Positions 17,971-21,712 of a stretch of 60,421 nucleotides of DNA are shown here, piece after piece. The stretch spans positions 1 through 60,421 of the forward strand of contig QKDC01000028.1 in assembly GCA_003246755.1 (NCBI GenBank). Reading direction: 5' to 3'. The translations under genes and the position numbers were made by a program. The notes under the pieces are model-generated. The model had not been told where the DNA came from, ran no database searches, and was given only the letters and a program-made list of their open reading frames with translations. Position 1 is the first letter of the stretch, and each line of letters begins with the position of its first letter. This DNA is from Gemmatimonadota bacterium (GTDB lineage Bacteria > Gemmatimonadota > Gemmatimonadetes > Gemmatimonadales > GWC2-71-9).

Positions 17971-19017
17971 ATGAGCACTTTTTCCGATATCAAGGACAAG
18001 TCCCTGGCGTCATGGCGCGAGATCGTCGCCCGGTATCAGACGCCGTCCACCTGGCGCAGTGTGGTGCAACTCTGCACCACCTTGGGTCCCCTCGTCCTGG
18101 CCTTCGTGGTCATGTACTTCCTTGCACGGGTCAATTACTGGCTCACCCTCCCTGTGGCCATCGTGGCCGCGGGGTTTCTGATCCGCACCTTCATCATCAT
18201 GCATGACTGTGGTCACGGGTCCTTTTTCCGTTCCCGTCGGGCCAACGATATCGTGGGGTTCATTACTGGTGTCCTGACCTTGACACCTTACGTGCAGTGG
18301 CGGCGAGATCACGCCATCCATCATGCGACCTCGGGGCACTTGGATGAGCGCGGTTTTGGTGACATTGCCACCCTGACGGTGCGAGAGTACTTGGACCTCA
18401 GTCGCTGGCGTCGATTCTGTTACCGAGTGTATCGCAATCCGCTCATTCTTCTTGGGGTCGGCCCGATCGCCCTGATCCTCCGCCACCGGGTGCACAATCC
18501 CAAGTCGGCCGGGCGGAAGGAGATCGTGAACGTCTACGCGACGAACCTGGCGATTCTTGTTGTGTTTACCCTGGCCTCCCTCGTGGTCGGTCCCTGGAAG
18601 GTGCTCTCACTCTACGGACCTGCGATGTTCCTGGCCGCTGCGGCAGGCATCTGGTTGTTCTACGTCCAGCATCAGTTCGAGGATACCTATTGGGCGGAGG
18701 CGGGGGAGTGGGACTATACGATCGCGGCTGTGGAGGGGAGTTCGTTCTACCGACTCCCGCGGGTGCTCGATTGGATAACGGGGAGCATTGGATTCCATCA
18801 TGTCCACCACCTCAGTCCCAGAATCCCCAACTACAACTTGCGCCGGTGTCATAACGAGAACCCGTTGTTCCAGCGGGCCCGAGTGCTGACCGTCTGGGAG
18901 AGTGCCAAGACCTTTTCCCTGAAGGTGTTCGACGAGGAACGCAAGCGCCTCATCGGTTGGCGTGAACTCCGACGCATCCGGGCCTCCGCAGGCCGCGCGG
19001 TGGCCCCCGGCCGCTGA
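17971..19017 (+). CDS. Membrane fatty acid desaturase
   Basis: A 348-residue di-iron membrane desaturase. The three histidine boxes are in place: H-D-C-G-H (about 76-80), H-A-I-H-H (112-116) and H-H-V-H-H (about 273-277). Helices flank the boxes as in acyl-lipid delta-12/omega-3 enzymes of the DesA/FAD2 group. It introduces a double bond in membrane fatty acids, using O2 and an electron donor, and is typically cold-responsive. It is transcribed alone, with a strong hairpin after it at 19052-19073 and no paired ferredoxin or reductase gene nearby. Confidence 0.92.
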   Translation: MSTFSDIKDKSLASWREIVARYQTPSTWRSVVQLCTTLGPLVLAFVVMYFLARVNYWLTLPVAIVAAGFLIRTFIIMHDCGHGSFFRSRRANDIVGFITGVLTLTPYVQWRRDHAIHHATSGHLDERGFGDIATLTVREYLDLSRWRRFCYRVYRNPLILLGVGPIALILRHRVHNPKSAGRKEIVNVYATNLAILVVFTLASLVVGPWKVLSLYGPAMFLAAAAGIWLFYVQHQFEDTYWAEAGEWDYTIAAVEGSSFYRLPRVLDWITGSIGFHHVHHLSPRIPNYNLRRCHNENPLFQRARVLTVWESAKTFSLKVFDEERKRLIGWRELRRIRASAGRAVAPGR

Positions 19018-19051
19018 TCGCCGTCCCGGTTCGTCCCGATTCGTTCGACCC

Positions 19052-19076
19052 ATGGCCGCCCTCGGGCGGCCATTTG
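19052..19076 (+). terminator. Terminator-like hairpin after the desaturase gene
   Basis: ATGGCCGCC (19052-19060) and GGCGGCCAT (19065-19073) form a 9-bp perfect stem with a CTCG tetraloop, followed by TTTG. It lies 34 bp after the desaturase stop and directly abuts the promoter-like TTGACA that follows. Confidence 0.7.
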
Positions 19077-19102
19077 ACATCCCGGGGTGCGTCGTCCACT
19101 AT
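19074..19102 (+). promoter_or_regulatory. Predicted promoter of the EF-G-like/selenoprotein unit
   Basis: A perfect -35 box TTGACA (19074-19079) is followed after 17 nt by CACTAT (19097-19102), which keeps the most conserved A and T of a -10 box. An AGGAGG ribosome-binding site (19120-19125) and ATG 19136 follow. The -35 shares bases with the T-tract of the preceding terminator. Confidence 0.5.
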
Positions 19103-19135
19103 CCCTATCCCCTTTTCTCAGGAGGCCGGGACCGC

Positions 19136-21181
19136 ATGAAGGTCTATGACACAACGGCGATCCGGAACGTGGCGTTCGTGGGGCACGGATCCTCCGGCAA
19201 GACCACCCTGGTGGATGCCCTCGCGTTCGTTTCCGGATCGAGCCGCAGACATGGCACCATCCAAGATGGCACCACCCTCACCGATCACACTGCCGACGAA
19301 ATTGAGCGCCAACACTCCATTGGCCTCAGTCTGGGCATTGCCGAGTGGGAGGGCGCCAAGATCAACCTGATCGACGTCCCGGGCTACCTGGATTTCATGG
19401 GGGAAGTGGTGACCGGGTTGTACACGGCCGACGCGGCCGTCGTCGTGATCAGCGGCGCCAGCGGCGTCGAGGTCGGCACCGAGAAGACATGGCAGATCTG
19501 CGACGAACGCCACCTGCCCCGTATCATCTTCGTGTCACAAATGGACAAGGAACGCGCTGATTTCGACCGCGTATTCGATGACGTCAAGGAGCATTTGTCG
19601 CCCAAGGTCGTGCCCGTCGAGATCCCCGTCGGGTCAGGAACCGAGTTTCGGGGGATCATCAATCTGCTGACCGGGAAGACCCACCTGTACAAGGCGGGTA
19701 CCAAGTCCGGAGAATATGAAGAAGCAACGATTCCCGACGATCAGAAGGAGACATTTGCCAAGTACGACGAGCAACTCGTCGAGGCCATTGCCGCCACCGA
19801 CGACGACCTACTCGAACGGTACCTCGGCGGCGAAGAACTTCCGCGTGCCGACCTCGTCACCGTGCTCAAGAGGGGGATGGCCCAAGGGGAGATCGTACCC
19901 ATGCTCTGTGGGAGCGCTACACTGACCTACGGCATGCGGGCTCTGCTGACGGACATGGTCGAACTCTTCCCTTCACCGGACGAAGTGGCCCCTCCGGCGG
20001 AAGGCAAACTGGTCGCCCGGGTCTTCAAGACCGTCTCCGAGCCGCACGTGGGCGATGTCTCGCTCTTCCGACTCTACCGAGGCGGTGTCAAGAACGGACA
20101 AGAAATCTTCAACGCCGAACACTCGCTCGTGGAGAAACTCAACCACCTCACGGTGCAGCAGGGCAAGGATCGAATGGAAGTGGCGCGGCTCGCCGAGGGT
20201 GACATCGGTTCCGTCGCAAAACTGAAGGACACACACACCAACGACACCTTTTGTCTGGAAGCCAATCCCGTTCAGCTCGAGCCGATTCCCTTCCCGGAAC
20301 CAGTGGCACTGTCTGCGGTCGTGGTCAAACAGCGTGGTGAGGAAGACAAACTGGCGGCGGGTCTCCACAAGCTCCATGAGGAAGATCCCACCTTCAATTT
20401 CGAGTACAGTTCAGAGCTGGGGCAAACCCTGATCCATGGGATGGGTGAGCGACACTTCGATGTCATTCTCGGTCGCCTGGAGCGCAAGTTCGGAGTGCAT
20501 GCGGAGCTCCTGCGTCCCAAGGTTGCGTATCGGGAAACCATCAAGGGCAAGGGAGAAGGGCAGGGGAAGCACAAGAAACAATCTGGCGGCCGAGGACAGT
20601 ACGGAGACTGCAAGATCAGGCTGTCACCCCTTCCACGTGGGTCCGGGTATGAGTTCGTCGACAAAATCGTGGGCGGCGTGATACCCAACAAGTACATCCC
20701 TGCGGTGGATAAGGGGATCCGCGAGGCTGCGGTCCGAGGGGTCGTCGCGGGGTATCCCCTCGTCGACTTCCGTGCGGAGTGTTACGACGGATCCTATCAT
20801 GACGTCGATTCGAACGAGATGTCGTTCAAGATGGCGGGGATCCTGGCCTTCCGGAACGTTGCCCCAACTTGTCGCCCGGTTCTCCTCGAGCCCCTCTCCG
20901 ATATCGTGGTTTGGACTCCGGAAGACGTGCTCGGTGACGTGATGGGCGATCTCTCGGCGCGACGAGGTCAGATCCTGGGGACTGAACAAGACGGCCGCCT
21001 CCTCAAGGTGCTGGCCATCATCCCCGAGGCCGAATTGTATCGCTACAGTACCACACTGCATTCCATCACCCACGGTCGCGGTACGTACCGTCAGTCCTTC
21101 AGGGGGTATGCGGAAGCCCCGCCGGACGTCGCAGCCAAGGTCGCCGAGGAGAGCGCGAGGGAGAAAGAGGAAAAGAAGTAG
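19136..21181 (+). CDS. EF-G-like translational GTPase (EF-G2 type)
   Basis: A 681-residue protein with all EF-G domains: GTPase (1-270, P-loop G-H-G-S-S-G-K-T at 16-23, G3 D-V-P-G-Y at 80-84), a beta-barrel, and C-terminal domains III-V ending in G-R-G-T-Y-R-Q-S-F-R-G-Y. Compared with canonical EF-G, the P-loop lacks A-H-I-D-A-G and the G4 N-K-x-D is S-Q-M-D (134-137), as in the divergent EF-G-like paralogues whose ribosomal role is unsettled. It is therefore probably not the housekeeping translocase. The start is ATG 19136 with AGGAGG; the frame is open further upstream. It is followed with no gap (TAG then GTG) by the selenoprotein gene. Confidence 0.88.
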   Translation: MKVYDTTAIRNVAFVGHGSSGKTTLVDALAFVSGSSRRHGTIQDGTTLTDHTADEIERQHSIGLSLGIAEWEGAKINLIDVPGYLDFMGEVVTGLYTADAAVVVISGASGVEVGTEKTWQICDERHLPRIIFVSQMDKERADFDRVFDDVKEHLSPKVVPVEIPVGSGTEFRGIINLLTGKTHLYKAGTKSGEYEEATIPDDQKETFAKYDEQLVEAIAATDDDLLERYLGGEELPRADLVTVLKRGMAQGEIVPMLCGSATLTYGMRALLTDMVELFPSPDEVAPPAEGKLVARVFKTVSEPHVGDVSLFRLYRGGVKNGQEIFNAEHSLVEKLNHLTVQQGKDRMEVARLAEGDIGSVAKLKDTHTNDTFCLEANPVQLEPIPFPEPVALSAVVVKQRGEEDKLAAGLHKLHEEDPTFNFEYSSELGQTLIHGMGERHFDVILGRLERKFGVHAELLRPKVAYRETIKGKGEGQGKHKKQSGGRGQYGDCKIRLSPLPRGSGYEFVDKIVGGVIPNKYIPAVDKGIREAAVRGVVAGYPLVDFRAECYDGSYHDVDSNEMSFKMAGILAFRNVAPTCRPVLLEPLSDIVVWTPEDVLGDVMGDLSARRGQILGTEQDGRLLKVLAIIPEAELYRYSTTLHSITHGRGTYRQSFRGYAEAPPDVAAKVAEESAREKEEKK

Positions 21182-21712
21182 GTGGCGTTCATTGGGTATG
21201 TGCCCGACGGGGACATCGACCCCGTGGACAACGTGCCGGACCACGACAACATCATTCGCATCCATGGTGTCCACAGCCGGACGATGCGGCAGCATTACGA
21301 GTTGTATGTCGAGTTGATGCATCGGCCGGGGCCTCTTGGCCGAGAGCAGCGTGAGATGATCGCGGTAATGGTGTCGGGTATCAATGGCTGCCGGTATTGA
21401 CTGCACCATCACGGAGCGGGCCTCCGTCGACTTCTCGAGGCACGAGGCCTTTCTTCGCAGGCTCAGGATCGCCTGATCGACGCCCTGGCGCGTGACCACA
21501 CGCGCGCGACGCTGAATCCTCCCGACCGGGCAATGCTGGATTACGCCCTCAAATTGACGGTCACGCCTGGCACGATGACGGCAACGGATGTCCAACCGCT
21601 GCGTGCGCAGGGCTTCAATGACAGAGCTATTCACGATATCTGTGCCGTGACGGCGTACTACGCCTTCGTCAATCGTATCGCCGATGGGCTCGGCGTTGAG
21701 CTGGAATCCTGA
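21182..21712 (+). CDS. Selenocysteine-containing AhpD/CMD-family peroxidase-like protein
   Basis: Read through an in-frame TGA at 21398-21400, this is a 176-residue AhpD/carboxymuconolactone-decarboxylase-fold protein with Sec at residue 73. Before the TGA: D-N-I-I-R-I-H-G-V-H-S-R-T-M-R-Q-H-Y, then R-E-M-I-A-V-M-V-S-G-I-N-G-C70-R-Y. After it: L-H-H-H77-G-A-G-L-R-R-L-L and about 100 residues of regular coding sequence up to TGA 21710-21712. AhpD-type proteins have C-x-x-C-x-x-x-H here, so the TGA replaces the second redox Cys exactly and H77 is the proton-relay His. A UGA-C context and a hairpin follow. GTG 21182 abuts the EF-G-like stop. Likely thiol-dependent peroxide reduction. Without Sec decoding, only a useless 72-residue fragment would be made. 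Confidence 0.85.
21398..21427 (+). promoter_or_regulatory. Candidate bacterial SECIS element with Sec codon
   Basis: UGA (21398-21400) is followed by C. Starting 10 nt later, ACGGAG (21411-21416) pairs perfectly with CTCCGT (21422-21427) around a CGGGC loop. The loop begins 17 nt after the UGA and has G at its second position, within the known geometry of bacterial SECIS hairpins recognised by SelB. The lower stem is irregular. The element lies inside the coding sequence, as expected in bacteria. Confidence 0.7.

Follow-up and report, generated by a model that had tools for sequence, protein, structure and literature searches.

Results of our analysis indicate that an AhpD-like gene of the TIGR01926 family, located in the analysed window (the whole 60,421-nt stretch of the Gemmatimonadota contig QKDC01000028.1), very probably encodes a selenoprotein, in which the UGA at codon 73 would be decoded as selenocysteine (Sec) by SelB and tRNA-Sec, as directed by a SECIS hairpin that lies within the coding sequence and begins 10 nt downstream of this UGA (Table 1). 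The selenocysteine reading of this codon, proposed in a preliminary description of the window, is strongly supported: the genome contains selA, selB, and selD, the codon is conserved in homologous genes, and the hairpin is under constraint. Sec73 and Cys70 would constitute a CxxU redox centre aided by Glu58, Tyr72, and His77, and a peroxide or a disulfide would probably be reduced there through a selenenylsulfide intermediate. The actual insertion of Sec, the peroxidase-type chemistry of the product, its substrate, and its electron donor are what we infer from these comparisons of sequences.

Table 1. Features of the AhpD-like selenoprotein gene, in positions of the window
Feature	Position	Strand	Characteristics and evidence
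AhpD-like (TIGR01926) gene, predicted selenoprotein	21182..21712	+	176 residues, Sec at 73; GTG start, TGA stop; homologues of the same length
Glu58 codon	21353..21355	+	counterpart of the AhpD proton-relay Glu, 12 residues before Cys70; invariant in alignment A1
Cys70 codon	21389..21391	+	partner thiol of Sec73; invariant in alignment A1
In-frame TGA, predicted Sec73 of C70-R-Y-U73	21398..21400	+	all 27 homologues examined in relatives and 79/80 wider loci have TGA in this column
His77 codon	21410..21412	+	equivalent to His137 in M. tuberculosis AhpD; invariant in alignment A1; shares bases with the beginning of the SECIS stem
Bacterial SECIS hairpin, predicted	21411..21427	+	constraint on synonymous codons, covariation, fit to the PMC13188914 model

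Reading frame, protein family, and predicted active site

The frame that opens with the GTG codon at 21182 runs through 72 codons to the TGA at 21398-21400 and continues through 103 sense codons to the TGA at 21710-21712, which agrees to the base with the coordinates given previously. The sequence also confirms the assignment of the internal TGA to the second Cys of a CxxCxxxH motif and its TGA-C context: the joined protein contains the motif C70-R-Y-U73-x-x-x-H77, and the base that follows the internal TGA is C. A scan of the window for additional Sec codons, based on 45 open codons on both sides and on a coding-like GC content by codon position, listed 39 places, among which 21398 alone resembled genuine coding read-through when inspected by eye. 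Directly upstream, an EF-G-like gene occupies positions 18962-21181 of the window, and its stop codon abuts the GTG of the AhpD-like gene. We do not claim an operon, because among the loci compared in a search for conserved neighbourhoods this gene order is common only to one other genome (G017, locus L114).

Two domain models match the product of the joined frame. Pfam CMD matches residues 45-83, a segment that spans the TGA (E 6.6e-11), and NCBIfam TIGR01926 ('peroxidase-related enzyme') matches residues 23-172 with a score of 124.3 bits, over its cut-off of 81.8, in line with the earlier claim of a coherent AhpD/CMD domain across the TGA. The structure of the read-through protein was predicted confidently by AlphaFold2 (pLDDT of 85). 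Top structural matches of the predicted fold, namely, 3c1l, 6k40, 2pfx, 2prr, and 2oyo (annotated as 'peroxidase-related' or AhpD-like), are also the best matches in the sequence search. These Cys enzymes of the TIGR01926 family are similar to the protein described here in fold and active-site layout and share with it about 31-37% identity in the aligned part, but they contain CxxC, the second Cys of which is replaced here by Sec. Two neighbouring AhpD-type families, the AhpD-related CFYUT (seleno)protein (NF041238) and the YciW-related (seleno)protein (NF053654), give scores far under their cut-offs (43 vs. 175 bits and 17.5 vs. 310 bits, respectively).

The proton relay of M. tuberculosis AhpD involves Glu118, Cys130, His132, Cys133, and His137 (PMC3141380). 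The relevant set of residues (Glu, Cys, His/Tyr, Cys/Sec, and His) is present in the read-through protein with the spacing of AhpD, Glu-x11-Cys-x-x-Cys/Sec-x3-His, the distance between Glu58 and Cys70 being the same as that between Glu118 and Cys130. Residues E58, C70, Y72, and H77, as well as residue 73, are all invariant in our alignment (A1). The position of His132 is occupied here by Tyr72, as in P. aeruginosa PA0269. In sequence, M. tuberculosis AhpD (1lw1) is remote from the protein described here, and in the fold search it is a weak match. In this active site, Sec73 would act as the attacking residue and Cys70 as the resolving one.

Selenocysteine-decoding machinery of the genome

The source assembly is a Gemmatimonadota draft of 190 contigs, estimated to be 95.8% complete. 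A search of this genome identified selB (308 bits), selA (523 bits), and selD (363 bits), each over its curated cut-off. The selD gene (L018:1501-2430, on contig C127) likewise contains an in-frame TGA, placed at the catalytic site (HGAGUACKLG), and its product is itself a selenoprotein. The gene of tRNA-Sec (selC) was not found in the draft assembly, as neither the Rfam model nor BLAST with selC of a relative gave anything convincing. Those matches to the Rfam model RF01852 that were examined all turned out to represent other tRNAs, including a tRNA-Leu as the best-scoring match (54 bits). The claim that the organism decodes Sec is borne out by selA, selB, and selD; the preliminary description would have counted the absence of selB or selC from a complete genome against it, and selB is present, whereas the search that failed to find selC was made in a draft assembly.

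Among 12 genomes searched, selC is present in 10, at 70-80 bits, and in nine of those ten ARAGORN predicts a tRNA-Sec with the TCA anticodon. In Gemmatimonadota relatives (loci L052-L061), the tRNA-Sec gene commonly adjoins fhs, which encodes formate-tetrahydrofolate ligase, and a gene of the RidA family; in G022, G024, and G036 it lies on the contig of the AhpD-like gene, at a distance of about 32-41 kb. A search for fhs gave no match in the draft assembly analysed here. Since this neighbour of selC is absent as well, an assembly gap is suggested, and a missing contig would be the simplest reading of both absences.

The undetected tRNA-Sec and fhs would also be compatible with a TGA form that is real but resides in a strain that has recently lost Sec decoding, so that only the 72-residue fragment would be made. 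We consider such a loss very improbable: selA, selB, and selD are intact, selD itself needs the insertion of Sec, one missing contig would account for selC and fhs together, and the same searches likewise failed to find selC in G017, which keeps selA.

Conservation of the TGA codon and of the downstream hairpin

Homologues were searched for in 61 related genomes with a query carrying Cys at the Sec site, which gives no bias toward TGA, and were found at E <= 1e-10 in 19 of them. All 27 homologues examined have exactly one in-frame TGA, in the same column, with an invariant Cys three residues before it and His four residues after it. Because this pattern is common to 27 of 27 genes of relatives, the TGA is not a matter of chance, as had been argued previously from the improbability of a random nonsense mutation at exactly this residue. 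Several groups of diverged paralogues are represented among the 27 genes, as is a second gene from the genome that harbours the window. In the scan of the GTDB genome collection, TGA occupies this codon in 79 of 80 loci and TGT in one, a ratio that may be skewed, since one of the two seed patterns used in the scan covered the Sec site. The 80 loci are labelled as Gemmatimonadota, Acidobacteria, Chloroflexota, Deltaproteobacteria, Planctomycetes, KSB1, Marinimicrobia, Bacillota, and others. In a phylum-wide search, only eight of about 150 matches listed have no stop. The alignment of homologues at residue 73 reveals that TGA is kept and Cys is rare, and scattered stops or frameshifts were not seen in the homologues. 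In close pairs of homologues, the part of the gene before the TGA and the part after it are both under purifying selection (e.g., dN of 0.042 and dS of 0.226 for the downstream part in L101/L109); the pair L107/L111 was left out, because an indel puts its alignment out of register.

The second, diverged AhpD-like gene of the same genome (L049:1501-1896, corresponding to G000:C36:2255-2650) has its own in-frame TGA in a CxxU motif (C-L-F-U) and a different hairpin, GCCGCG/CGCGGC. The TGA form is also encoded by Bacillaceae (L163-L169), several of which are named (Alkalibacillus filiformis DSM 15448, Bacillus sp. SG-1, and Rossellomorea aquimaris), and by the named strain Oscillochloris sp. ZM17-4.

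The 6-bp hairpin noted previously is present, with the stem ACGGAG (21411-21416)/CTCCGT (21422-21427) and the loop CGGGC. According to the bacterial SECIS model of PMC13188914, the apical loop measures 3-9 nt and carries a G within its first two positions, the upper stem comprises 4-16 bp, and the loop lies 16-37 nt from the UGA. The hairpin described here, with a loop of 5 nt, a stem of 6 bp, a G at loop position 2, and a UGA-to-loop distance of 16 nt, fits these constraints. A search of Rfam around the TGA gave a single chance match to a snoRNA and nothing else, and therefore the evidence for the SECIS element is drawn from sequence comparison.

Codon usage within the hairpin deviates strongly from that elsewhere in these genes. 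Among the 79 Sec loci, Gly78 is encoded by GGA or GGG in 75 of 76 cases (45% elsewhere), Ala79 by GCG in 63 of 65 (36% background), Leu81 by CTC in 73 of 79 (31% background), and Arg82 by CGT in 47 of 60 (10.5% background), while for two codons beyond the hairpin the usage is at or near background. Pairing is preserved in 91.6% of the cells of the alignment of 73 distinct sequences, including 11 cells changed on both sides, as compared with about 27-50% in controls in which the partners were slid by 1-3 columns. None of 500 shuffles reached the observed covariation, a count that is not a probability, because the sequences are related. All six pairs are formed in 53 of 79 observed sequences vs. 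380 of 20000 synonymous resamples. The SECIS structure is the minimum-energy fold of a 39-nt stretch but not of a 43-nt stretch (z 0.57), and energy z-scores of single 43-nt folds are uninformative for most of the sequences. Taken as comparative evidence, the codon and pairing patterns indicate that the hairpin is under selection beyond that for protein coding.

The coherent read-through product and the undetected tRNA-Sec could in principle be reconciled with a genome-wide reassignment of UGA (e.g., to Trp or Gly) or with read-through by a near-cognate tRNA, and hence with another residue at position 73; we give this next to no credence, as UGA also terminates the same gene at a length that homologues keep, the position aligns with Cys in solved relatives, the SECIS element is selected at synonymous sites, and selA, selB, and selD are present. 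A pseudogene disrupted by a nonsense mutation or a sequencing error, with which the end of the 72-codon frame at the TGA and the lack of a detectable tRNA-Sec would agree, is refuted because the codon is conserved across independently assembled genomes, nearly all homologues having no other stop, and both halves of the gene are under purifying selection.

Cysteine forms and the known selenoprotein family

In support of the selenocysteine reading, selA was detected in 21 of the 24 genomes that encode the TGA form vs. one of the eight that encode a no-stop form. The three TGA-form genomes without detected selA (G008, G029, and G228) are all fragmented, but tRNA-Sec is present in two of them (G008 and G029). 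In the no-stop group of eight genomes, Cys was confirmed by reading in L184 alone. In this closest no-stop form, the reading of which is identical to that of L121, the relevant codon is TGT, two pairs of the hairpin are disrupted, and the loop sequence is GCAAC. It belongs to G164, in the genome of which selA was not found. Since L121 nests inside the Sec clade of the FastTree tree, the Cys form of G164 is likely a Sec-to-Cys reversion.

The gene joins the AhpD-like CxxU selenoproteins, a named family known since 2005, when 27 sequences from the Sargasso Sea were described (PMC1088965). Representatives from genomes followed in 2006 (PMC1794560), 299 sequences were assigned to 'AhpD-like 1, COG2128, CxxU' in 2008 (PMC2398784), and the family is listed under TIGR01926 in PMC13188914. 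As presented in the sections of these sources that deal with it, the family (COG2128/TIGR01926) shares with the protein described here the model, the CxxU motif, the UGA at the second Cys, and the SECIS element directly downstream. The copy described here differs in its origin from an uncultivated lineage of Gemmatimonadota, a phylum that the same sections of the four papers do not name for this family. What is unusual is the almost complete lack of Cys forms in this branch, together with the strong conservation of the hairpin sequence across phyla.

A standard gene caller that halts at the TGA would report a 72-residue fragment or miss the gene, and the term 'hidden' selenoprotein used previously is apt; many Gemmatimonadota genomes would be misannotated in the same way. 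With Cys forms nearly absent, this branch lends itself well to the question of why Sec is retained, and direct tests are possible, because the TGA form occurs in strains that bear names (Alkalibacillus filiformis DSM 15448, Oscillochloris sp. ZM17-4, and Bacillus sp. SG-1). It is conceivable, if somewhat doubtful, that the HHG-motif branch of TIGR01926 is almost exclusively Sec-containing in many phyla, with a SECIS element conserved both in sequence (ACGGRG-CGGGN-CTCCGT) and in structure, and that its Cys forms are mainly reversions upon the loss of the Sec machinery. If so, the chemistry of this branch would depend on selenium and not merely gain from it.
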